Positions 1 to 10,549 of a stretch of 64,000 bases of DNA are shown one piece after another (position 1 is the stretch's first letter; every line of letters starts with the position of its first letter). The DNA is from Brevibacterium sp. CCUG 69071 (lineage in GTDB: Bacteria > Actinomycetota > Actinomycetes > Actinomycetales > Brevibacteriaceae). Where the stretch lies: positions 744,001 to 808,000 of the forward strand of contig NZ_PGFV01000001.1 of NCBI RefSeq assembly GCF_021023135.1. Reading direction: 5' to 3'. The position numbers and the translations under genes are program-made. The notes below the pieces were generated by a model. That model made no database searches, was not told the origin of the DNA, and saw only the letters and a program-made list of their open reading frames with translations.

Positions 1-48
1 GCAGGTGACGGGACTACGGAGCACACGGCCGCTGCTTCGCTGGCGTGA
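1..48 (+). other. possible 3' end of an upstream gene (cut by window edge)
   Basis: Reading from base 1, sixteen codons end in TGA at 46-48 and give an ordinary-looking C-terminus (ending TAAASLA). It is too short to identify and could be chance. Confidence 0.15.
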
Positions 49-108
49 CCGGGAGCCGTCATGCCTCTGAACACACTCACTTCAGAGACGGTTGGAAGCG
101 AGGTGGCT

Positions 109-162
109 CGCGTAGGCCGACATCGCCGAGGCGCGTAGGCCGCATCGCCCTCCTGATGTCGG
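109..162. repeat. direct repeat and inverted repeat upstream of the OLD-type gene
   Basis: CGCGTAGGCCGACATCGCC at 109-127 recurs as CGCGTAGGCCGCATCGCC at 132-149. The 8-bp arm CCGACATC (117-124) is complementary to GATGTCGG (155-162). A TACAAT hexamer follows at 173-178 and could be a -10 element. These sites lie 70-120 bases before the nuclease gene and could be its control region; no factor is known. Confidence 0.3.
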
Positions 163-231
163 ACGTGCTCTGTACAATTTGCCTTAGGCAGGCTCTCCGA
201 GCCGGGATGAACAGATGGCGAGGACGTGATC

Positions 232-2580
232 ATGCGCGTGACACAGGTGTTGGTGCGGTTCTACAAATCGTTCAACTTCGACTACGAGTTGAAGGCAACG
301 CCGGGTGCTAAGCAGGTGCCCTGGCAGCAGACCAAGGACGGATGGATGCCGCACGTGCGCATCTCGCTCGAGCCGGACATCACCGCGGTCGTCGGCGCGA
401 ACGAGTCGGGTAAGACGCATCTTCTCGATGCGATCAAGATCGTACTGACAGGCGAGGGCTTGCTTCAGCGAGACTTTTGCCGGTCATCCACTCTCTTCTC
501 GGTCGAGCACGGCTCACGCCTCTACCCAGAAGTCGGCGCGATACTCGCCCTCGATGAGTCCGAGGCAGAGGTGATCGCGGCACAAGCCATCCCTCTGCTT
601 CAAAGCGGCGACATTCTCCTTCTACGACCGGAACCGGGAGTCATGGCCGTCGTTAATGCCGACGATCAGCGCGTCGTCCTCAGTGACGTCCAGGGTCGAG
701 CGCTTCAAGATCTCCTGCCACATCCGCATGAACTTGACACGAACACGGCTCTCCCTGACTCGGTGTCTATCGGGATGCTCGCGGGCCATGCCAAGTCGCT
801 AAACGGGCGCAAGAAGCGCTCTGCTCTGTTGGAAATTCTCGCCGCAGTGACTTCTGCTGACGAGATCTCGAAGAGTGCGTCAGCGCTGGCGGAGATCGTC
901 ACCGGCCAGGAAGGCGTAGACACGCAGAAGCAGAAGGAGCAACAGCTCGGGATCGACCTGCTGGTCAAGATCGCTCAGATCGAGCAGTCCAGCTTCAAAG
1001 AGCTGCAAGAAGCTATCGCAGAAGAGCGCGAGGGCCTGGTCAACGGTCTCATTCAGGAGATGAACAACTCGATTGCCCGCCACCTCAATGTGTCTCGTTG
1101 GTGGAGCCAAGATCCGGAGTTCCAGCTCCGCGTGTCACCGCGCGAGCACGAACTTGTCTTCACGATCCGTGACCGCACCGGGACCGACTACTCCTTCACG
1201 GAACGCAGCCGCGGCCTGCAGTACTTCCTCAGCTACTACGTCCAGATGCTTGCACATGACCGGCCAAGTTCGCAGCCGGAGGTTCTCCTCATGGACGAAC
1301 CGGACGCGTATCTCTCGGCGTCTGGACAGCAGGACTTGCTCCGAGTGTTCGAGCACCACGCACGGCCCGACGATTCCGACCGCGAAGACCAAGTCGTCTA
1401 CGTCACTCACTCCCCGTTCCTCATCAACCGCAACGCCGGGCACCGAGTGCGAGTGGTAGACAAAGGTTCACGCGATGAGGGCACCCGACACGTAAAGGAC
1501 GCGACCCGTAATCACTACGAGCCGCTACGAACCTCACTAGGGTCGTTTGTCGCCGAGACAGCCTTCATCGGCGGCGATAACCTTTTCGTTGAGGGGATCG
1601 CTGACCAGGTCCTCCTCGCAGGTATGAACATGAGACTTCTCCGCTCGGGAGTTGCACCAAGTCAGTGCCTCGATCTCAATCAGGTCACCATCGTCCCCGG
1701 CGGATCGAACATCCCATACATGCTCTACCTTGCACGCGGTCGTGATCAGGTGAAGCCCGCATGCGCTGTCCTGGTCGATGGGGACGACGCCGGCAACACA
1801 GCTCGGAAGCAGATCAAGAAGGGTGGCGCTCACGGAAAGCCCACCGTCGCCGACGAGTTGGTCGTGCAGGTCGCAGAGTGGGCTGCCGATGCCTCCCCCG
1901 ACGTCACACCGGGAGTGATCGTTCGTGAGCCGGAGGACCTCGTACCTGCCGGCATTGCGGTCATTGCCGCGCGGCGTTATGCCCAGCACTTCTTGGGCCA
2001 TAGCGAGACGACCACAGCGAAACTCATTGAAAGCGACCTGAAGGATCGACTCGAAGCTTGCAAAGGCAACATGTGGGATGCCCTCGACCAAGCCTTCAAC
2101 GCAGTCTTCGCAACCAAGCTCGGCAAGGCAGGGTTCGCGAAAGAGCTCCTCGCATACCTCGCGGAATTGGATATCGACAAGAGCCGTCCGGCCGGAGTTC
2201 TGGCATTAGATAAGAACTTCGGACTGCTCCTAGCACGTCTCACTGAGACGTTGAATCGGGCCAGGGAGATGGAGTCACAGAGCCGGCGCGACCAGAGGCT
2301 TGAACGCGCCATCGATACCTTCGTGAAGGACTACCCCACGGGCTGCACCCGCGATCGAGCTATGAGCATGCTCGGCCGTATCGATGCGGCCGTGGATTCG
2401 ACCACCGCGGGAGATGCCATCCGTGTTGGTACGGCAAGCATTCGCCGCGATTTCAAACTCTCCACTGAACCCCTTAAGAAGGTCGACGAGTACCCTGCCT
2501 TCTTAGAGCGTCTGAGCAACCTGCGTCATTTCGAGCGGCTGAGCAATCAGGGCGTGCTGACATCGCCGACGGATTCGTGA
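232..2580 (+). CDS. OLD-family ATP-dependent nuclease (AAA ATPase plus TOPRIM)
   Basis: The N-terminal half is an SMC/Rad50-like ABC ATPase. It has Walker A GANESGKT (residues 57-64 counted from the GTG at 226) and Walker B LLMDEPDAYL (about 352-361), followed by a switch histidine in YVTHSPF. A TOPRIM domain follows, with its glutamate in FVEGIADQVLL (about 453) and the acidic pair in VDGDDAGN (about 515-522). This is the architecture of OLD and GajA endonucleases, which act in phage defence. I chose the ATG at 232 because GAGG at 220-223 sits 8 bases before it; the GTG at 226 is too close. At over 780 residues it is longer than many relatives and has about 260 residues after the TOPRIM core. 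No UvrD/GajB-type helicase gene is adjacent, so it is not a Gabija pair as seen here. Confidence 0.85.
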   Translation: MRVTQVLVRFYKSFNFDYELKATPGAKQVPWQQTKDGWMPHVRISLEPDITAVVGANESGKTHLLDAIKIVLTGEGLLQRDFCRSSTLFSVEHGSRLYPEVGAILALDESEAEVIAAQAIPLLQSGDILLLRPEPGVMAVVNADDQRVVLSDVQGRALQDLLPHPHELDTNTALPDSVSIGMLAGHAKSLNGRKKRSALLEILAAVTSADEISKSASALAEIVTGQEGVDTQKQKEQQLGIDLLVKIAQIEQSSFKELQEAIAEEREGLVNGLIQEMNNSIARHLNVSRWWSQDPEFQLRVSPREHELVFTIRDRTGTDYSFTERSRGLQYFLSYYVQMLAHDRPSSQPEVLLMDEPDAYLSASGQQDLLRVFEHHARPDDSDREDQVVYVTHSPFLINRNAGHRVRVVDKGSRDEGTRHVKDATRNHYEPLRTSLGSFVAETAFIGGDNLFVEGIADQVLLAGMNMRLLRSGVAPSQCLDLNQVTIVPGGSNIPYMLYLARGRDQVKPACAVLVDGDDAGNTARKQIKKGGAHGKPTVADELVVQVAEWAADASPDVTPGVIVREPEDLVPAGIAVIAARRYAQHFLGHSETTTAKLIESDLKDRLEACKGNMWDALDQAFNAVFATKLGKAGFAKELLAYLAELDIDKSRPAGVLALDKNFGLLLARLTETLNRAREMESQSRRDQRLERAIDTFVKDYPTGCTRDRAMSMLGRIDAAVDSTTAGDAIRVGTASIRRDFKLSTEPLKKVDEYPAFLERLSNLRHFERLSNQGVLTSPTDS

Positions 2581-2830
2581 CGGTTATCGCGCGGTTTCGT
2601 ATTCGCCTCCCTCAGCCCCTCTGCTCCTCCAGTACAAGCAAGCTTCCGTAGCTGCGCGATGCCATCCTTCCAAGCCCACCCCACAGGCAAGCCAGATCAG
2701 ATGTCACCTACCCGTGCAGCAGACCCGAGCCTTCCTCGCGGACGATGGCGTCACCGAGCTGTACGCGGTCCCCGATGCGATGAGGACCCGAGCCGATGCC
2801 TGCCAGATCAGCAGACCACGCTGCGGCGCA
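2581..2830. other. gene-free stretch with possible coding debris
   Basis: These 250 bases separate the convergent OLD-type and RloB genes. A short plus-strand frame near 2714-2815 reads like protein (LADDGVTELYAVPDAMRTR) but has no plausible start signal and ends quickly. It may be the remnant of a lost gene. I see no convincing terminator. Confidence 0.2.
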
Positions 2831-3436
2831 TCAGCTCTCCCCGCGCATGAGGTCAACGAGGATCGGCATCGCCGACGACGGATCCGGGCCGACACGGCCA
2901 GCTTGCATCGCGGGATCCGCCGCTCGGGCGACTCTGCAGGCATCGTCGACGCCGTCGATGGGAAAGCGCAGCGGCAGCCTCTTTCCCGTGGTGAGCTTGA
3001 GCGTCGCCATCCGCTGATCCAACTGTGACGAACTCAACGCCGATCTCTTGTCCTCGGCGTGCCAGCGCAGCCAGGCCTCGAACTTGAGGTTCGAGACCAG
3101 CAGAAGGATCGACTCGTGCTCAGCCAGGCGACTCGCGCGCTCCAGAGTGGTGTGTTCATCGACGTCGACCAGGCACACGCAGACGTCGTAACGCTTCTCC
3201 GTGCCCGCGGCAGCATCACGCAGCTCGATGGACTTTTCCACGACGCGAAGAGGGTCCTCCCCAACACCCACCGACTTGACGATTGCCGTGGCCGACCTGC
3301 TGCGCAGGTACCCATCAAGACGCTCGACGTACTGGGGCTCCGTTCTGATGCCCTCGGTCACCACAAGGATGCGCCGGGCAGGATTGCGCTGCGGCCGTCT
3401 CTGCGCTCGACGTCCCTGCCGGCCTGCCACGCTCAA
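2831..3436 (-). CDS. RloB-domain protein (AbiLii-like)
   Basis: This 201-residue protein matches the RloB family (PF13707) in layout. A basic N-terminus leads into RRILVVTEGIRTEPQYVERL, then VGVGEDPLRVVEKSIEL, an acidic VDVDEH stretch and the SNLKFEAWLRWH motif. It ends in the usual DPSSAMPILVDLM tail. The E-x-x-x-T-E and D-x-D-E positions resemble a TOPRIM-like metal site. Its ATG overlaps the stop of the upstream ATPase gene by four bases (ATGA), so the two are translationally coupled. RloA/RloB pairs were first noted in type I restriction loci, and AbiL of Lactococcus pairs an ATPase with an RloB protein; that makes abortive infection the likely role. No restriction genes are seen nearby. 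Confidence 0.8.
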   Translation of the reverse strand: MSVAGRQGRRAQRRPQRNPARRILVVTEGIRTEPQYVERLDGYLRSRSATAIVKSVGVGEDPLRVVEKSIELRDAAAGTEKRYDVCVCLVDVDEHTTLERASRLAEHESILLLVSNLKFEAWLRWHAEDKRSALSSSQLDQRMATLKLTTGKRLPLRFPIDGVDDACRVARAADPAMQAGRVGPDPSSAMPILVDLMRGES

Positions 3437-4755
3437 GCCTTGCCGGACTGCACGAGTGCGGCCAACGAGCTGGGCGAGAGACGCGGGGTGCCCCCATATC
3501 GGCCCGTCAGGTAGCGCCGGGAGACGTTGGCGTCGGGGTGCCTCGGGAAGTCAGAGAGGCAAGTCAGTTCGGTGACGCCCTCATAGGACTTGTCCGTGAA
3601 CCACACCTGCTCCGGATCGAGCTTCACCTCGCTCAACGGCGACAGGACGTACGACTCGTGGCTGGTGAAGATCAGCTGCGCGTGCTCCGTGTTGACACCC
3701 GGATCCGCGAACGCCCCGAGCAGGACCTCCAGCAAGTGAGGGTGCAGGCTCGCATCGATCTCGTCGACCACGAGGAGCCCACCCTGCCGGAGGGCTTCCA
3801 GAGCAGGCACCGCGGTAGCGAGCCACGCGATGGTGCCGTCGCTCTCGTCCTGGATCGAGAACGCCGGGCAGTCCTCGACCGTGCCGCGGTGGGTGAACAC
3901 CAGGTGGCGGATCACCTGCTCGAGCTGATCAGGATCGAGTTCATCAGCGCTGTCGTCCTCGCCGCCCTCGTCCTCTGCGTCGTTACGCAGGTCACGCTCT
4001 AGGTTGAGGAACGCTCGACGGATGCGCTCGGGGATGTTCGTCTCCTCGATGTCGACCTTCACTACGCCGATGTCGGCGACCTGGAGCAGCGCCTCAAGAT
4101 CGGCGAAGGTGATGGTCTTCTCCGCCAGGGAATCCGCGATGTCCCTCAGCCGTGACTCGCGGTGGGAGTCCTTGACCAGCACTGCGTCGAAGTGCGATAC
4201 GAGATCCCGGGCGATGGCGTGCAACAGCGTGTCCCCAAGCAGCAGCGCACGACTGAGGACCAGCTCACGAGGAGTGACCTCAATCTTTCCACGTAATGCC
4301 GCGTGGAATGTGAGCGTGCCCTCCCCCCGGTCACGCTCGAGCAGGGTGCGCCAGCGCGAGCTGGGCACATCGCGCATCCACTCACGCCTAATCCCCTCCG
4401 CGTCGACCTCGAAGCCGTACAGGTGCCGGCGGCCGTCGTGGACGAAGTCGAGCTCGTATGTGCTCGAGGACGAGCGCGCCGTCCCATCGAGCTGGAAGGG
4501 TGCCCGGTGTACGGACTTGGATGCCTGCCAGCTAGTCGCGGACAGCTGGATTGCTGTGAAGACAAAGCGCAGGGCATCCAGCACCGCCGACTTGCCGGTG
4601 GCGTTGCCGCCGAAGATACCCGCAAGCGAGTAGCTCGCACTCGACCAGTCGGCATCCTTCGGCTGCAGGGTCCGGAGGGAGGGATGCGTGAGGTCGAGCG
4701 TGATCTCATCCCTGATGCTGGCGTGGTTACGCACGGTGAAGCTCAACAGGATCAT
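3433..4755 (-). CDS. AAA family ATPase (AbiLi/RloA-like)
   Basis: This is a 440-residue P-loop ATPase of the SMC/OLD-like AAA_15/AAA_21 group. It opens with MILLSFTVRNHASIRDE, the standard entry of the family. Walker A is GGNATGKS (residues 49-56), Walker B is LLVVDEIDASLHP (about 327-339) and the switch histidine lies in IFTSHESYVL. No TOPRIM domain is present; the partner RloB gene supplies the likely nuclease, overlapping by 4 bases. An earlier ATG at 4785 with a GAAAG sequence before it would add ten residues (MMRSACYGLI). I prefer 4755 because the family starts there, although 4785 has the better ribosome site. Both genes look like one defence operon. Confidence 0.82.
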   Translation of the reverse strand: MILLSFTVRNHASIRDEITLDLTHPSLRTLQPKDADWSSASYSLAGIFGGNATGKSAVLDALRFVFTAIQLSATSWQASKSVHRAPFQLDGTARSSSSTYELDFVHDGRRHLYGFEVDAEGIRREWMRDVPSSRWRTLLERDRGEGTLTFHAALRGKIEVTPRELVLSRALLLGDTLLHAIARDLVSHFDAVLVKDSHRESRLRDIADSLAEKTITFADLEALLQVADIGVVKVDIEETNIPERIRRAFLNLERDLRNDAEDEGGEDDSADELDPDQLEQVIRHLVFTHRGTVEDCPAFSIQDESDGTIAWLATAVPALEALRQGGLLVVDEIDASLHPHLLEVLLGAFADPGVNTEHAQLIFTSHESYVLSPLSEVKLDPEQVWFTDKSYEGVTELTCLSDFPRHPDANVSRRYLTGRYGGTPRLSPSSLAALVQSGKA

Positions 4756-5454
4756 GATAAGACCATAGCATGCCGAACGCATCATCTTTCACGTTTTTCG
4801 AGCGAATCGATACGCTCCGATCAGTTCAGCATGACGAGCGACCGATTCGACGAGGTCGCCGAGATCCGTCGGAAGATCATCATTGAGATTGAGGCGGTTC
4901 GAGTCACGGCGAAGAACCTCACACTGCATGCCACCGTCCACGCCCCCGGCAAAGGGCTGCCGGAGCTCGTCGGGCCGGTTCATGTGCGGCACACATGGTC
5001 GGTGCAGTTGCAGTCGGCTATGTCCAACTCAGGGAGTCGGGGCAGCACTGCAACGAGGGGCGATCAGCGGGTCGGGTACCGCTGACACACACTGCGCTCG
5101 AGCCGTTTATCGCCAACCTGCCGGAGCCGTAGAAGGAGCGCATCTGTGTCGAGGGCGCACGGCGGATCTTCGCCGAACAGCGGGACGGGTCACCGGCATC
5201 CGTCGCGGAGGGACTCGAAGTCGAAGCGGAGGCGAGCGACCAGGCCGTCCCGACTCGGAGGTCGTGCGCGTTCGTCGCCGTTACCGCGTCCTGCTGGGCC
5301 CACTTGAGTCAGGTGAGCTCTGTCGTTTGCCGCGCATATGCGCCTCCGACAAGACGGTTGCCCCGGGAGTCCGGTCTTAGAAGATCCGAATAGTCACCGG
5401 GGCTCACGTCTTTGATCCTAGCAGTGCCTGCGCACCACCCGGAGGTTGGCTGTT
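4756..5454. other. gene-poor region with degenerate coding fragments
   Basis: These 700 bases contain no intact gene I can defend. On the plus strand a frame from ATG 4831 reads well for about 60 codons (MTSDRFDEVAEIRRKIIIEI), after which the sense moves to another frame that ends ALEPFIANLPEP-stop near 5132. A third stretch after it (RICVEGARRIFAEQ) is also protein-like. This pattern suggests one or two frameshifted genes decaying on the plus strand. The product is unknown. Confidence 0.3.
4831..5132 (+). pseudogene. probable decayed gene of unknown function
   Basis: Two protein-like segments in different frames run on from one another, the first to about base 5010 and the second from about 4995 to the stop near 5132. 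A single frameshift would join them into roughly 100 codons. Neither part is recognised. The call rests on codon appearance only. Confidence 0.25.
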
Positions 5455-6612
5455 CTAATCCTGCTCGACCGGGAGGCTGGCGAACGCACGAGCATCGTCG
5501 CGCATCCGTTCGAGCACAGCGAAGTTGCTCAGCACGGTCTCCGGCTCATACGTGACGGTAGGTCTCAGTTGCTGCATCCGAGCAAGCATCTCCTGGTCCG
5601 ACAAGCTCTCCAGCCATGCCGCGATCTGCTCGGTACCCAGGTCATCGTCCATCTTGCTTATGGTCTCGACCATATCGCGGCGCATTGCTGCAGCCCTGAG
5701 GCGGTCGTTGTGGAGCTGCGGGGCAGACATCGTCGACCCTGAAGACAGCGCACTGCGCTCGTCGTCATGGCCGACCGAGATTTCGTACCGAGCAGGCAAG
5801 GCCGGTGCAGGCGGTTCGACCCCCGTGATCAACCGTGGCACTGCTTGACACCGTACCCACGTGGCAAGTTCGTCAAGCTCCTTCATCAGCACCGGCCAGC
5901 GCTCGGTACCGGGCCGGTTAATACCAATGGTCGGGAAGAGCGCGACAGGAGTGTGCTGACCTCTGGGGGTCTCCGCGATCACCTCCCCGACCTGCAACGG
6001 CACCTCCGGGCGACGCTCGACATCTGCCAACGGCGACGGCATACGGTCCTCGCGATGAATCGCTGCGAGGCGGACGGCGGTGACCGCTGGCGATCGGTGT
6101 TTCGAGTGGTTTGTGTGCAGCGCTAGCAGCGCCATCGGGTGATCATGCGAGCCCACCGTCCGATGGAACGGTTGGAGCCCCTCGATGCGCTTGATCAACT
6201 CGCTACCCCGCTGCAGGGACGGCGGCCCGTTCTTCGCACGACCCTTCATCCATGCGTCGAACGCATCGTAAGTCTGCGCCGCCGGCATCTCTACGACTTT
6301 GGCCGCTTTCTCGTCGAGCGTGCCATCGCGGTACTCAACCTCAGCGAACAGGGTGTGCTCGATAGCATTCCGCAGGACTACCAAAGCGTCGGCGACCAAG
6401 AGGACGACCTTGCGCGGTATCGGCGATATGCTCAGCACGATAGTCTGACTGTGGGTGATCATCGGCACTTCTCGCAGCTGGATGATCCCTTTCGGCTGCG
6501 TCTGATAGTCGAAAAGGAGGCTGGCGACTTCCCCGATAATCTCATCAGCGTGTGCGAGCGTCGCCGCCACGGCCAGATGGTGGTCGGGCAACCATGTGTA
6601 GTTCGAACTCAT
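5455..6612 (-). CDS. uncharacterised protein with HEPN-like N-terminal domain
   Basis: I do not recognise this 385-residue protein as a named family. Its first half has features of HEPN folds. A helical segment ADALVVLRNAIEHTLFAEVE carries R81-N82-A-I-E-H86, which fits the RX4-6H HEPN ribonuclease motif with a polar residue right after the arginine. Further on, LHTNHSKHRSP (165-175) resembles the KHR motif of the large group of HEPN-like proteins with a pattern of LRxxLDH followed by DKHR. The second half is conserved in a decayed second copy at 7600-7790 (ALFPTIGINRPGTERW, residues 224-239). The C-terminal 90 residues are helical. No transmembrane segment is seen. Being in a defence island, an RNase toxin-like role is plausible but unproven. 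Confidence 0.6.
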   Translation of the reverse strand: MSSNYTWLPDHHLAVAATLAHADEIIGEVASLLFDYQTQPKGIIQLREVPMITHSQTIVLSISPIPRKVVLLVADALVVLRNAIEHTLFAEVEYRDGTLDEKAAKVVEMPAAQTYDAFDAWMKGRAKNGPPSLQRGSELIKRIEGLQPFHRTVGSHDHPMALLALHTNHSKHRSPAVTAVRLAAIHREDRMPSPLADVERRPEVPLQVGEVIAETPRGQHTPVALFPTIGINRPGTERWPVLMKELDELATWVRCQAVPRLITGVEPPAPALPARYEISVGHDDERSALSSGSTMSAPQLHNDRLRAAAMRRDMVETISKMDDDLGTEQIAAWLESLSDQEMLARMQQLRPTVTYEPETVLSNFAVLERMRDDARAFASLPVEQD

Positions 6613-6645
6613 CCTCGGTCTTTCTGATTAGCGTTGAATTGCGGA

Positions 6646-6768
6646 GTCCATGCTCCGTCGGCCTCCGCGAAGGCCGCGGCGAATTGGGAGCGATAGGCCC
6701 GGTCTCGTGGTGTGGATCCCGAGCTGATCGACGGGCTCCGCATGTTGCTGGCCGCGAACTACTTGTGA
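6646..6768 (+). pseudogene. C-terminal gene remnant with one in-frame stop
   Basis: The plus-strand frame ending at TGA 6766-6768 reads SASAKAAANWER, then a TAG, then ARSRGVDPELIDGLRMLLA. The residue pattern on both sides of the stop looks coding. It is about 40 codons long and has no start. This is probably debris of a lost gene. Confidence 0.25.
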
Positions 6769-6814
6769 TTGCGAGAGTTCAGGCGAAACCATGCCTCGGG
6801 CGGTCTCTGACCGC

Positions 6815-7075
6815 TCAGGACGAAGACTCATCACGGACCGAAAACAGAGCCGCGACTTGCCCACGAGACAGCGGAGCTGACTCAGGCGGCAGCATATGCT
6901 CGACGTAGCGATGCACATCGCTCGGATAGTAGACGGGCCCGCTCTCTCCGTTCGCGTAGGTCTTCATGATCATGTGCTCGCGGAAGTCAGCCATGCGGTC
7001 GCCGAGGATGCCGACGAGCTGCTGCTCGGAGTAGCCGAGCTCGTTGTCGTGTGCGGGGAGTAGTCTGCTGTCCAT
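6815..7075 (-). CDS. small hypothetical protein (86 aa)
   Basis: This gene encodes an acidic 86-residue protein (MDSRLLPAHDNELGYSEQQL...). GYSEQQLVGILGDRMADFREHM looks like an amphipathic helical unit, and GPVYYPSDVHRYVEHML a second one. Small proteins with a similar G-Y-[ST]-E-x-x-[LV] ... L-G-D-R ... D-F pattern occur in actinobacterial phages and islands, but I cannot name a family. The ATG at 7075 starts where the protein-like sequence begins; a reading from 7186 would add 37 residues of low quality. It lies about 200 bases upstream of the 385-aa HEPN-like gene on the same strand and could be its partner or antitoxin; that is speculation. Confidence 0.5.
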   Translation of the reverse strand: MDSRLLPAHDNELGYSEQQLVGILGDRMADFREHMIMKTYANGESGPVYYPSDVHRYVEHMLPPESAPLSRGQVAALFSVRDESSS

Positions 7076-7599
7076 CGTTCTATTTTCCCGCCCGATTAGA
7101 GGCCGTGCATTTCCCGCCCAGCGCCCTGGAGCCCTCTGACCACCGCACTCCACATTCCGGTCGCCCAACCTGCGGCCGAGGCGCACCCTTCTGAAGGCAT
7201 GATCATCGGCGAGGAACCAGAGAGCAATTCGGGTCTTGCCCGCGCAAGGGTGGCTGGCGTCGCATTTTCATCCCAGTCCGAAGCGATCAACTTATTCGCC
7301 TCTCCTTCCATGAGAGGGTCACGCGCCTTCGCAGTCTCGAGTTGCGGAAAATGACGTCACATATGTCGGAATCGAGTGGCAGCAGGCGTGGGTTCCCCGA
7401 GGTCACCATATTGTCGGCCAAGTGTGCGATCCAGCTCGAGTGTTCACCGGGCCCGGTATAACGTGTACCTGAGTAACCTTGCCACCGAGGTCAATCCGCG
7501 CAGAGTCCACACCCAGCCGTTGCACATGTCACTGCGACGCAGCGGTGATGTAGTCGGAGGCAAGAGCATCTCACTCATCGCTGTTCCCGACCGAGAGGT
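7076..7599. other. region without a confident gene
   Basis: A 71-codon minus-strand frame at 7096-7311 (SDWDENATPATLARARPEL) has AAGGAGAGG a few bases before an internal TTG and could be a small gene, but nothing supports it further. The rest, 7312-7599, looks like continuation of decayed coding sequence in shifting frames. Confidence 0.2.
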
Positions 7600-7790
7600 G
7601 ACATAGTGGATAGTGAGATCGGTTCGGGAGCCTCTTTGTCGGCGATGAGCCGTGGTATCGCCTGGGCCAGGAGCAAGTATACGATCGCGTGGACTTCAGT
7701 CATTAGAATCGGCCAACAGTCAGTACCGACTCGATTGGTGCCGATTGTCAGGAAGAGAGCGCCTCGACGCCCATCTTACGATGAGCGCCG
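7600..7790 (-). pseudogene. frameshifted relic of a second copy of the 385-aa HEPN-like gene
   Basis: The reverse strand from about 7762 down to 7611 translates as ALFLTIGTNRVGTDCWPILM, then after a divergent stretch QAIPRLIADKEAPEP. This aligns without gaps to residues 224-272 of the intact protein encoded at 5455-6612 (ALFPTIGINRPGTERWPVLM ... QAVPRLITGVEPPAP), with about half the residues identical. Stops (TAA just upstream, TGA near 7572) and frame changes on either side end the match. The N-terminal HEPN part is absent. The relic lies directly downstream of the HEPN/TOPRIM gene on the same strand. Confidence 0.7.
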
Positions 7791-7835
7791 TACCAGGCGG
7801 CATACGGCAACTGGTGCATAGAACACTCATTCGCA

Positions 7836-9155
7836 TTACGTATAAAACTGTCCAGGAAACGATTCGGGCTCGGCCGCACTTAAAAGACTCCCAACAAGCG
7901 CCCGCATCGCAGACCAAGAATCTCGATCAACCTCATGGTCTGGCGAAGCGCCCGCAAGGAAGGACCTTATGTTTTTCTGTACATAGGCTTTATCTGCCTT
8001 CGAAAGGCTGCCTTGATAAGCTCCGATTGAAGCAACGGGTCCGGACCACTCAACCTTTGCGAACTCACCGTTCTCTTTGCGCAATACGTCAAGTCCAAAT
8101 TGAAATTCGATCGCCACCGCACGGCCATTGATGTCAAGATTCGAGTCGCCGCTGGGCCCAAGAGTCGGATACGACTCCCCATATGGAACGTCTGGAAGCA
8201 GGAAGTACCGATTGTTGCTTGGACGTGGCTTTGCCTCGAGCTCTCTGGCCGCCGCACGCCCCGCTGCATCATTATCAAGGACACCGACGACGCGATTAGT
8301 TATCCCGGCGGCCGCGAAGGCACGCAGTGTGCGAACAACTTGAGCTGCGTTCAGTTCGGCTCCTGCTTCCCTATCGAAGAAGCGAAACATGTGCGATAGT
8401 TGTGGTGCGACAAGGTCGAGTGCAGATTTCAGGAACTCGGCGTCTGTGACTCCCTCGGTGACGACTACAATCGGTCCGCCTGAGCTCACACTAACTGCGA
8501 GCTCATCCACAGCAAGTTGCGTGATGTTGTCTATGCTTTCGAAGTAGCCAGCGAAGTAGAGATCGTGCAAATCAATCCAAACCTCGTCGTTTGATTCTGA
8601 GGACTCGAGCTGAAGCGCTAGAAGTACTCTACGATCGACTCCTGATTCCAAAAACACTTCGATATAGCGTGAGCAATACTTTTCGATGGGATCGTCTAAC
8701 CGTCCTGATTGGCCAGCCTCATACGCCTGCAGTGCCCGATCCAGCACCTCCTCCTTGGGGACGTTACTAACAACTCCACCCAGATCGAGAACGGAGATAG
8801 CGTCTCCCAGCTGATCTTCCTCGATAACCTCGTAGATGCCGCGTGACAGCTCTCGCCGGCACGCTTCCGCGGTGAAGCCCATTAAAGACAAACGCCGGCG
8901 AATAGTCGACACCTTCGCTAGGTAACCAAATGTACGCGAAGGATCAACTTCCTCTAAGAAGATTTCATCTTCCGCCTGCAGCGCTGCATCATCAGCAGTG
9001 TACAGACGTGACGTTTGTCGTTCGCAGACGTCTAACCAATGTTTATCTGCGACTTTCTCGGTCTCCGTGAATAACGTGAGAAGCGCGAGAGGAGTTTCGT
9101 TCCGACCCCATTGAATCTGATTTCCGCCTCGATAAAGCCACCAACGGTCGCTCAC
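7836..9155 (-). CDS. HEPN/TOPRIM-associated domain protein
   Basis: This 439-residue protein starts MSDRWWLYRGGNQIQWGRNE and continues PLALLTLFTETEKV, which resembles the N-terminal domain of HEPN/Toprim conflict proteins (HEPN_Toprim_N type, PF18871). The C-terminal half has a TOPRIM core: VVTEGVTDAEFL with glutamate 234, then GVLDNDAAGR (291-300) with the D-x-D pair, and a later ESYPTLGPSGDSNLDINGRA segment. TOPRIM plus HEPN predicts nucleic-acid cleavage in a defence setting. No ATPase domain is present. A canonical RX4-6H is not obvious, so HEPN activity is uncertain. Codon choice is clearly more AT-rich than all neighbours, which indicates recent acquisition. Confidence 0.7.
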   Translation of the reverse strand: MSDRWWLYRGGNQIQWGRNETPLALLTLFTETEKVADKHWLDVCERQTSRLYTADDAALQAEDEIFLEEVDPSRTFGYLAKVSTIRRRLSLMGFTAEACRRELSRGIYEVIEEDQLGDAISVLDLGGVVSNVPKEEVLDRALQAYEAGQSGRLDDPIEKYCSRYIEVFLESGVDRRVLLALQLESSESNDEVWIDLHDLYFAGYFESIDNITQLAVDELAVSVSSGGPIVVVTEGVTDAEFLKSALDLVAPQLSHMFRFFDREAGAELNAAQVVRTLRAFAAAGITNRVVGVLDNDAAGRAAARELEAKPRPSNNRYFLLPDVPYGESYPTLGPSGDSNLDINGRAVAIEFQFGLDVLRKENGEFAKVEWSGPVASIGAYQGSLSKADKAYVQKNIRSFLAGASPDHEVDRDSWSAMRALVGSLLSAAEPESFPGQFYT

Positions 9156-9316
9156 TGCCGTTCCTCGTTTCTTGATGTTTCTTGCACAGGACGTGCAGGC
9201 GGATCGCTCTTCTTTACCGTGTGCGCTTCAGCAACCTACTCCACTATCTACAGAAGCGTTTTGAACTTCTAGTCTCGTCAACTCTAGTCACCCTGACGAA
9301 TGCCCCCGACGAACGA
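9156..9316. other. island-to-core junction, no gene seen
   Basis: These 161 bases separate the HEPN/TOPRIM gene from the 3' end of the SpoU methyltransferase gene. I see no tRNA, integrase, terminal repeat or clear promoter. Confidence 0.3.
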
Positions 9317-10549
9317 TTACCGAGTCGCATAAAACGCTACAGCCGCCGAGGCCGCGATGTTCAGCGAGTCCACGCCGTGCATCATCGGAATCGTCACCCG
9401 ACGGTCGAGCCGTCGATCAGCCTGGCGCGTCAGCCCTTGACCTTCTGTACCAAACACCAGTGCGAGATGCGGGTGGTCCTCGGCGACCAGTTCGTCCAGG
9501 CTGATCGCGCCCTCGCCCAGCGTCATGCCTGCCACAACGTATCCGTACTCCTTGATCAAATCGATGTCGTCCGGCCACGAATCGATGCGAGTCCACGGCA
9601 CCTGGAAGACGGTCCCCATCGAGACCCGGATCGAACGACGGTATAGCGGATCCGCACAGCTCGGTGTGACCAGCACAGCATCTACGCCGATTGCCGCGGC
9701 CGATCTAAAAGCGGCTCCGAGATTCGTATGATCAACTATGTTCTCGAAGATCGCAATTCGTGAACGTCGCTTCCTGTTCAAGGCTGATTTGGCGACTTCT
9801 AACGGGACGTTCTCGACAGAGTTCGCGCGAGTGCGAAGATGGTCCGTAGCTGGGCTGCCAGTCGTCGGCTCGAGGATATGATCGACCACAGGATCTGCAG
9901 CCTCGGAACGCGAAAATCGACTCGTATTCGAGGACTCAGCGCCTCCGTGTGCAGGTTTGGAACCCCACACGTTCGTGTGGTCGACGACGTCTTCGATGAC
10001 GACGATGCGCCGAGCATCCGCCACAAGCTCCGACACCGCAGGCAACGATGGGCGATGCATGGCCGCAAGAGCCCCGCGGTGGAGGTGGAAGCCGGTGAGC
10101 GATTCCACGGCGGCATCGGTGCCGATGAAGATCGGCACATCGTGTTCGGCGATGAGGTCGGCGAGGTCGAAGAGCCATTTGGGACTGGTCAGGAAGGACC
10201 GCGGCACAAGACCCGCGGCATGGGCGCGCCGGATGATCTTCGAGGATTCGGCGATGAACAGTCCTTCGGCGGGCTCTCGAATGCTGCGCAGTGCGACGTC
10301 CGTCAGCTGCGTGTAGTCGTGCAGCGACCCCAGGTTTCCGTTCGCAGCAGGGCCGTCGGTGACGTCCCCGCGGGGACGCCCACCCACGGCCCCGCCGGTG
10401 CCGCCAGCCCCGCCGGTGCCGCCAGCCCCGCCAGCGGCGGCCAGGGATGATTCGTCGAAGAAGTGCAGCCGCGCCTCGGCGATGCCGAGTTCCGTCGCCC
10501 GCGCCCGGATCTGCTCACGCGTCAGCGGGGCCTTGGCCGGGGTGTTCAC
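9317..10549 (-). CDS. TrmH/SpoU-family RNA 2'-O-methyltransferase, with internal motif duplication
   Basis: SAM-dependent ribose methyltransferase of rRNA or tRNA. Residues 75-170 form the substrate-binding domain (FIAESSKIIRRAHAAGL). The SPOUT catalytic part has motif 1 NLGAAFRSAAAIG (276-288), motif 2 LVFGTEGQGL (364-373) and motif 3 IPMMHGVDSLNIAASAAVAF (387-406). Two features are odd. A Gly/Ala/Thr-rich stretch fills residues 39-57. The SPOUT entry motif occurs twice: RIVVIEDVVDHTNV (181-194) and RIAIFENIVDHTNL (264-277), separated by about 70 residues of unrelated sequence. The part from 9317 to about 9965 has lower GC than the part upstream. The gene borders the defence island and may be a recombination chimera. 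The intact second copy should still be active. Confidence 0.88.
   Translation of the reverse strand: MNTPAKAPLTREQIRARATELGIAEARLHFFDESSLAAAGGAGGTGGAGGTGGAVGGRPRGDVTDGPAANGNLGSLHDYTQLTDVALRSIREPAEGLFIAESSKIIRRAHAAGLVPRSFLTSPKWLFDLADLIAEHDVPIFIGTDAAVESLTGFHLHRGALAAMHRPSLPAVSELVADARRIVVIEDVVDHTNVWGSKPAHGGAESSNTSRFSRSEAADPVVDHILEPTTGSPATDHLRTRANSVENVPLEVAKSALNRKRRSRIAIFENIVDHTNLGAAFRSAAAIGVDAVLVTPSCADPLYRRSIRVSMGTVFQVPWTRIDSWPDDIDLIKEYGYVVAGMTLGEGAISLDELVAEDHPHLALVFGTEGQGLTRQADRRLDRRVTIPMMHGVDSLNIAASAAVAFYATR

Follow-up and report, generated by a model that had tools for sequence, protein, structure and literature searches.

The stretch at 7341-7760 of the window, the 64,000-nucleotide piece of DNA analysed here, is a pseudogene. 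It preserves C-terminal sequence of a divergent second member of the family to which a nearby intact 385-aa gene belongs, and was probably left behind when the cargo of a small genomic island was replaced. We refer to this stretch as the relic. The island lies in a SpoU-family methylase gene, and its features are collected in Table 1.

Table 1 Features of the island and its target gene, in window coordinates
Feature	Position	Strand	Evidence
Island, part inside the window (whole about window -799 to 9968, C11:743201-753968, about 10.8 kb)	1..9968	.	Junctions compared with relatives' uninterrupted genes
3' tail of resolvase-like gene (frame C11:743402-744070, L023 7402-8070)	1..70	+	PF00239 6.9e-12
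OLD-like AAA ATPase (name inferred)	226..2580	+	PF13175 and PF13304 above cut-off
AbiLii/RloB-like protein, adjoins the AbiLi/RloA-like ATPase	2831..3436	-	PF13707 1.9e-21; AbiLii 2.2e-15
AbiLi/RloA-like AAA ATPase	3433..4785	-	PADLOC AbiLi 3.5e-74; PF13304 2.2e-33
Intact 385-aa gene, of the relic's family	5455..6612	-	No Pfam, NCBIfam, PADLOC or PHROGs match
86-aa ORF, not part of the relic	6815..7075	-	83% identical to ORF upstream of M. excoecariae 385-aa gene
Relic, pseudogene of the 385-aa family, residues 224-363	7341..7760	-	tblastn, profile search, frameshift-tolerant alignment with controls, conserved-column loss
439-aa protein, HEPN/Toprim N-terminal domain and TOPRIM-like part	7836..9155	-	Pfam PF18871 25.6 bits, cut-off 25
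SpoU-family methylase gene, 410 aa, island target; codons 1-194 resident, downstream part island-borne	9317..10549	-	PF00588 2.9e-32; halves compared with relatives

Extent and decay of the relic

An earlier note on this DNA had placed a decayed second copy of the 385-aa gene at 7600-7790, its frame ended by stops and shifts. A tblastn search of the window with the 385-aa protein aligned 7620-7760, on the minus strand, to residues 224-270 (24 of 47 identical) and, in a second frame, 7487-7642 to residues 268-314, with two stops. The two blocks have a joint E value of 2.3e-11, and the next best place in the window has an E value of 0.011. The first block contains both peptides quoted in the earlier note. 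With a profile built from 17 members of the family, the relic block came up again among six-frame pieces of the window (E 5.9e-9), and only two places in the whole genome match the family at E 0.001, the intact gene and the relic.

A frameshift-tolerant alignment against a profile of 11 close family members joins the two tblastn pieces and adds a third, extending the match on the minus strand to the full span in Table 1 with a score of 169.5. Controls reached at most 37.8 for 40 random window segments and 45.5 for 40 first-order Markov shuffles. The decayed second copy is confirmed. It is longer than first described, and 7761-7790 is without a family match. The broken frame is borne out by three frameshifts, at approximate positions 7620, 7600 and 7439, and two in-frame stops. 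No match to residues 1-223 of the family was found for the relic; the N-terminal 223 codons are absent, and 75 nt separate the end of the match from the TOPRIM gene's stop codon. The relic has lost 10 of 25 conserved columns, compared with 0 to 6 of 25-28 in 21 other family members. Its similarity to the family is above chance over a defined part, and the open frame and retained conserved residues of a functional member were not found.

The comparison proposed earlier, TBLASTN of the 385-aa protein against 7076-7835, is covered by the search of the whole window, which recovers the relic; 6815-7075 is a separate ORF and does not belong to the decayed copy. Two other assignments of the region were rejected. 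As the source of a short protein the relic offers an open stretch of 66 codons, and the family match leaves that frame. The relic was also separated from the region of the 86-aa ORF, since this ORF matches its counterpart in Microbacterium excoecariae (locus L003) by itself. Of 149 relatives' genomes searched for the relic region, only its own gave a match, so no intact source or intermediate was found there.

An island in a SpoU-family gene

The SpoU-family gene at the edge of the island is doubled in its middle. Its first 194 codons share about 79-84% DNA identity over some 355 nt with same-genus relatives at 14 of 15 loci; the fifteenth, L072, has 72% over 584 nt. A displaced SpoU 3' half lies upstream of the window at C11:742800-743201. 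We compared both 3' halves with the loci of 19 relatives, L070-L088, which were the best among 38 other genomes searched. Of the 19, 15 match the displaced half at 79.6-85.1% over 398-405 nt. The same 15 match the half now in place at 69-70% over about 410 nt (two loci) or 74-78% over 168-191 nt (13 loci). The four exceptions, L070, L073, L080 and L088, match the displaced half less well, without the 80-85% identity. For L070, L073 and L080 the half now in place scores higher than the displaced half (71-77%), and the island-borne 3' half may therefore have come from that side of the genus.

The flanks of the element are adjacent, with an overlap of 3-6 nt, in all four relatives examined base by base. 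The matches of the two halves together with these adjacent flanks give good support to the reading that an element of ~10.8 kb entered the SpoU gene near codon 194, supplied a 3' half that restored the gene and moved the old half to the far end of the element. The target is uninterrupted in relatives, and the restored target and the displaced fragment stand at the two ends of the island. G+C is 0.54-0.58 over 7001-10000, 0.67 next to it and 0.61-0.65 over 1-7000. The restored gene is a chimera and contains an extra stretch of about 70 codons between its resident 5' and island-borne 3' halves.

The cargo is mostly of defence type. The AbiLi and AbiLii genes are adjacent, as in the AbiL (RloA/RloB-like) system, of which the pair is predicted to be an ordinary member. 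The OLD-like ATPase matches the PADLOC AriA, mad3, GajA and Old models at 6e-16 to 2e-12, and matches the TOPRIM model PF20469 weakly, at 14.6 bits, under the cut-off.

A second island in Microbacterium excoecariae

M. excoecariae carries an island at the homologous site with the same anatomy, a split SpoU gene and a displaced half. All 12 sampled loci of the genus coded g31, presumably Microbacterium, match this displaced half at 70-77%, 11 of them over 390-421 nt and the other over 159 nt. At 10 of these loci the displaced half is closer than the in-place half, and L102 and L103 show the reverse. The window's genus would differ from that of M. excoecariae, since the resident SpoU half is 68% identical to L003 and 79-84% identical within its own genus.

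Comparison of the two islands reveals three common regions. The block 5461-7128, with the 385-aa gene and the 86-aa ORF, is 79% identical and has no second 385-aa copy in L003; the resolvase-like region, taken together with the displaced half, is 76% identical over 1168 nt; and the new SpoU 3' half is 73% identical. The relic, the TOPRIM gene, the AbiL pair and the OLD-like gene were not found in L003, where the other cargo includes a FRG-domain gene (PADLOC PDC-S15) and a PIN-like gene (below the Pfam cut-off), among others. Full-length matches had made G798 and G778 candidates for further islands; both were rejected, as their genes are uninterrupted and the 20 kb examined hold no 385-aa gene.

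The 86-aa ORF and its M. excoecariae counterpart are 83% identical in amino acids and 87% in DNA. Their 35 differences are distributed 10/8/17 over the codon positions, which is only weakly coding-like, and both a small gene and a conserved DNA element would fit. Among 199 relatives it was matched in two, its own genome and, weakly, G183.

The resolvase-like protein

Serine recombinases usually depend on a nucleophile serine and a DR motif as catalytic residues. The resolvase-like gene lies mostly outside the window, and its copy here is frameshifted near the C-terminus, in two pieces and two frames. In an alignment, both the serine and the DR motif are missing from the proteins of this island and of L003 and present in those of L004, L028 and L061. 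The proteins of the two islands are about 80% identical over 153 residues despite the missing catalytic motif. A search for a recognisable site-specific integrase of the island identified none, the resolvase-like protein being the sole find.

Of 26 loci that carry the 385-aa family, 6 have a resolvase-like gene nearby (profile, E 1e-4); five of the six went into that profile and L063 alone is new, so we claim no enrichment. The match in L062 is a 107-aa piece. In L028 (9290-11161) the 385-family gene is preceded, at a distance of about 100 nt and in the same orientation, by a resolvase-family gene, in an operon-like arrangement.

The 385-aa family

The 385-aa protein belongs to an unnamed actinobacterial family. 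None of the four collections named in Table 1 holds a family that matches it, and the best comparison with solved structures (E 0.54) is not meaningful. The spread of the family is sporadic, each count including the genome studied here: 6 of 199 relatives (two weak), 9 of 394 genomes of the class (three weak), 15 of 396 genomes of the order by profile search (five partial or weak) and 10 of 72,556 plasmid records. It was found in none of 50,697 phage records, and none of 24 pattern matches in viral contigs was confirmed.

For the analysis of neighbourhoods we used 26 loci: the present one, five from genome contigs, 14 from genome searches and six of the ten plasmid records. Left out of the 26-locus and 15-genome counts were G066, G104, G261, G439, G075, G664, G716 and G082, as partial or weak, of which some reach E 1e-16 over part of the 385-aa protein, and also the plasmid matches H5, H7, H9 and H10. 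At least 3 of the 25 other loci (L022, L006 and L027) have a broken or truncated copy. In L006, from Rhodococcus sp. 1168, the broken copy is flanked by ORFs at 60-830 and 2261-3271, which encode RNxxxH-like motifs (RNEIYH and RNVVEH) and matched no Pfam family.

Six residues, R81, E85, N168, K171, H172 and R173, are invariant in 17 aligned members. Position 86 is H in 14, N in two and Y in one; residue 82, which follows R81, is N in five, T in one and A or G in 11. The HEPN definition, in the excerpts of PMC3710099, is an Rx4-6H motif with typically a polar residue after the R. R81-E85-H86 would recall this motif, though the residue after the R is A or G in 11 of the 17. The AlphaFold model of the 385-aa protein (mean pLDDT 47.4, five sequences) is too weak to judge a HEPN fold.

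Some neighbours of the family are of defence type: type I restriction in L061, AbiJ NTD3 in L026 with a homologue in L020, an AbiO/Nhi-like helicase in L021, PDC-S32 in L063 and PDC-S15 in L003. The neighbours scanned were picked by hand without a control, so these cases are a lead and not a rate. The remaining scanned neighbours gave no defence match above cut-off; several of them matched nothing, and others are a DXP synthase, an amine oxidase and an integrase. Because of this company and the R81-E85-H86 motif, the likeliest guess for the protein, a tentative one, would be that it acts against phages, perhaps by cutting RNA as a HEPN-like effector. A part in mobility is less likely.

Origin of the relic

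Over about 138 columns the relic is 34.8% identical to its intact neighbour, 39.9% to the Rhodococcus plasmid member L029, 38.4% to a further member from another genus and 37.7% to the M. excoecariae gene. Between the M. excoecariae gene and the intact neighbour the identity is 81%. Since the relic is no closer to its neighbour than to members from other genera, a recent tandem duplication is excluded.

An old tandem duplication, in which a duplicate of the intact gene lost selection and then drifted, is possible but less likely, and we consider it improbable. It would fit two copies on the same strand about 0.7 kb apart and an AU test that does not reject their sister relation (p 0.142). In the family tree the relic has a branch 1.67 long and a placement that is not fixed, and a fast-decaying duplicate could have such a branch. 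However, the identity to the intact gene is below the values for all three comparisons with other genera. Further, 16 diagnostic columns, for groups defined from the family tree, lean away from it, with seven matching the Rhodococcus-plasmid group, four the intact gene's group and five neither. The block shared with L003 also holds the intact gene and the 86-aa ORF but no second copy, and stops short of the relic. The earlier suggestion that the island grew by tandem capture is therefore retained in part: both copies lie in an acquired island, as capture would have it, but 35% identity against 40% does not fit a recent tandem copy.

We favour instead the reading of the relic as a remnant of replaced cargo. 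The gene would have belonged to an earlier cargo set of the island. The N-terminal part may have been lost when the TOPRIM gene was placed there or through an associated deletion, and drift would have erased the frame while the present 385-aa gene arrived as a separate acquisition. The cut in the relic at 7760 is seen; the event behind it is not. Points against this reading are also the unfixed placement of the relic in the tree, its region being matched in no genome but its own, the search that recognised no integrase, and the four of 19 and two of 12 loci that depart from the pattern of the SpoU halves.

A more speculative proposal, to which we give little credence, is that the 385-aa protein, the 86-aa ORF and the resolvase-like protein without catalytic residues might be the shared backbone of a class of SpoU-entering islands that use an unrecognised recombination route. 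The relic might then be backbone of an earlier element at the same site.

The TOPRIM neighbour

The 439-aa protein encoded next to the relic retains the TOPRIM Glu and DxD residues (E234, D294 and D296, invariant in all five aligned sequences), with Pfam Toprim models below cut-off and no HEPN domain matched. In the excerpts of PMC3710099 the name HEPN/Toprim-NTD1 spans fusions to HEPN, TOPRIM or Mrr-like domains, and therefore the neighbour need not be a HEPN protein. It resembles the members that join this N-terminal domain to a TOPRIM-like one, a combination listed there, and differs from the HEPN fusions under the same name in having no matched HEPN domain.

The 385-aa family had been suggested to travel with HEPN/TOPRIM genes. 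If the two genes formed a recurrent functional two-gene system, broken here, they should be adjacent, as they are in this window only. A TOPRIM-family profile found a match in 1 of the 26 loci (8 to 20 kb each) and in 1 of the 15 whole genomes, in each case our own. Pfam PF18871, a model that barely matches the neighbour itself, gives the same result over the 15 genomes. In the reverse direction, the TOPRIM protein occurs in 3 of 199 relatives, its own genome, G031 and G072, and the latter two have no 385-aa match; none of five distinct TOPRIM-family loci (G031, G072 and three of 47 plasmid records) holds the 385-aa family. The recurrence looked for in other genomes was thus not seen, and a functional pairing is very improbable. 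The wider idea of modules with conflict genes keeps the island with its AbiL-like and OLD-like genes and loses the HEPN/TOPRIM pairing.

Chance resemblance or sequencing error has least to commend it and is negligible, for although the single-frame alignment covers only 47 codons, the alignment score far exceeds the best of 80 controls, and sequencing error would not produce three frameshifts and two stops together with the loss of the N-terminal part and changes at conserved residues.

Discussion

We met no published account of this island in the literature, which is not proof that none exists. Its anatomy is like that of islands that split a target gene and rebuild it from their own end, as in the Islander (PMC4383910) and dusA island (PMC4482086) papers; Islander takes a regenerated target and a displaced fragment as marks of island endpoints (PMC4383910). 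Unlike those islands, the present one targets a SpoU-family gene in place of a tRNA gene or dusA, has no integrase that was recognised as active and carries cargo mostly of defence type.

A SpoU-like target has a parallel in pIF05 of Mycobacterium abscessus, a prophage-derived plasmid with predicted integration in a SpoU-like methyltransferase gene according to the excerpt of PMC10654092. Common to both is a SpoU-like gene as attachment site, predicted for pIF05, in an actinobacterium. The excerpt places pIF05 at the sixth codon and describes a phage-derived system, whereas the present island sits near codon 194 and the 3' half of its target has been replaced.

The relic itself is ordinary and changes little. 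The result speaks against pairing the 385-aa family with TOPRIM genes, and supports the idea of island growth by capture, without the tandem element. The resolvase-like protein shared by both islands looks inactive. The setting of the relic offers a clear example of exchanged cargo in a small island that restores its target, and M. excoecariae has a related island at the homologous site.
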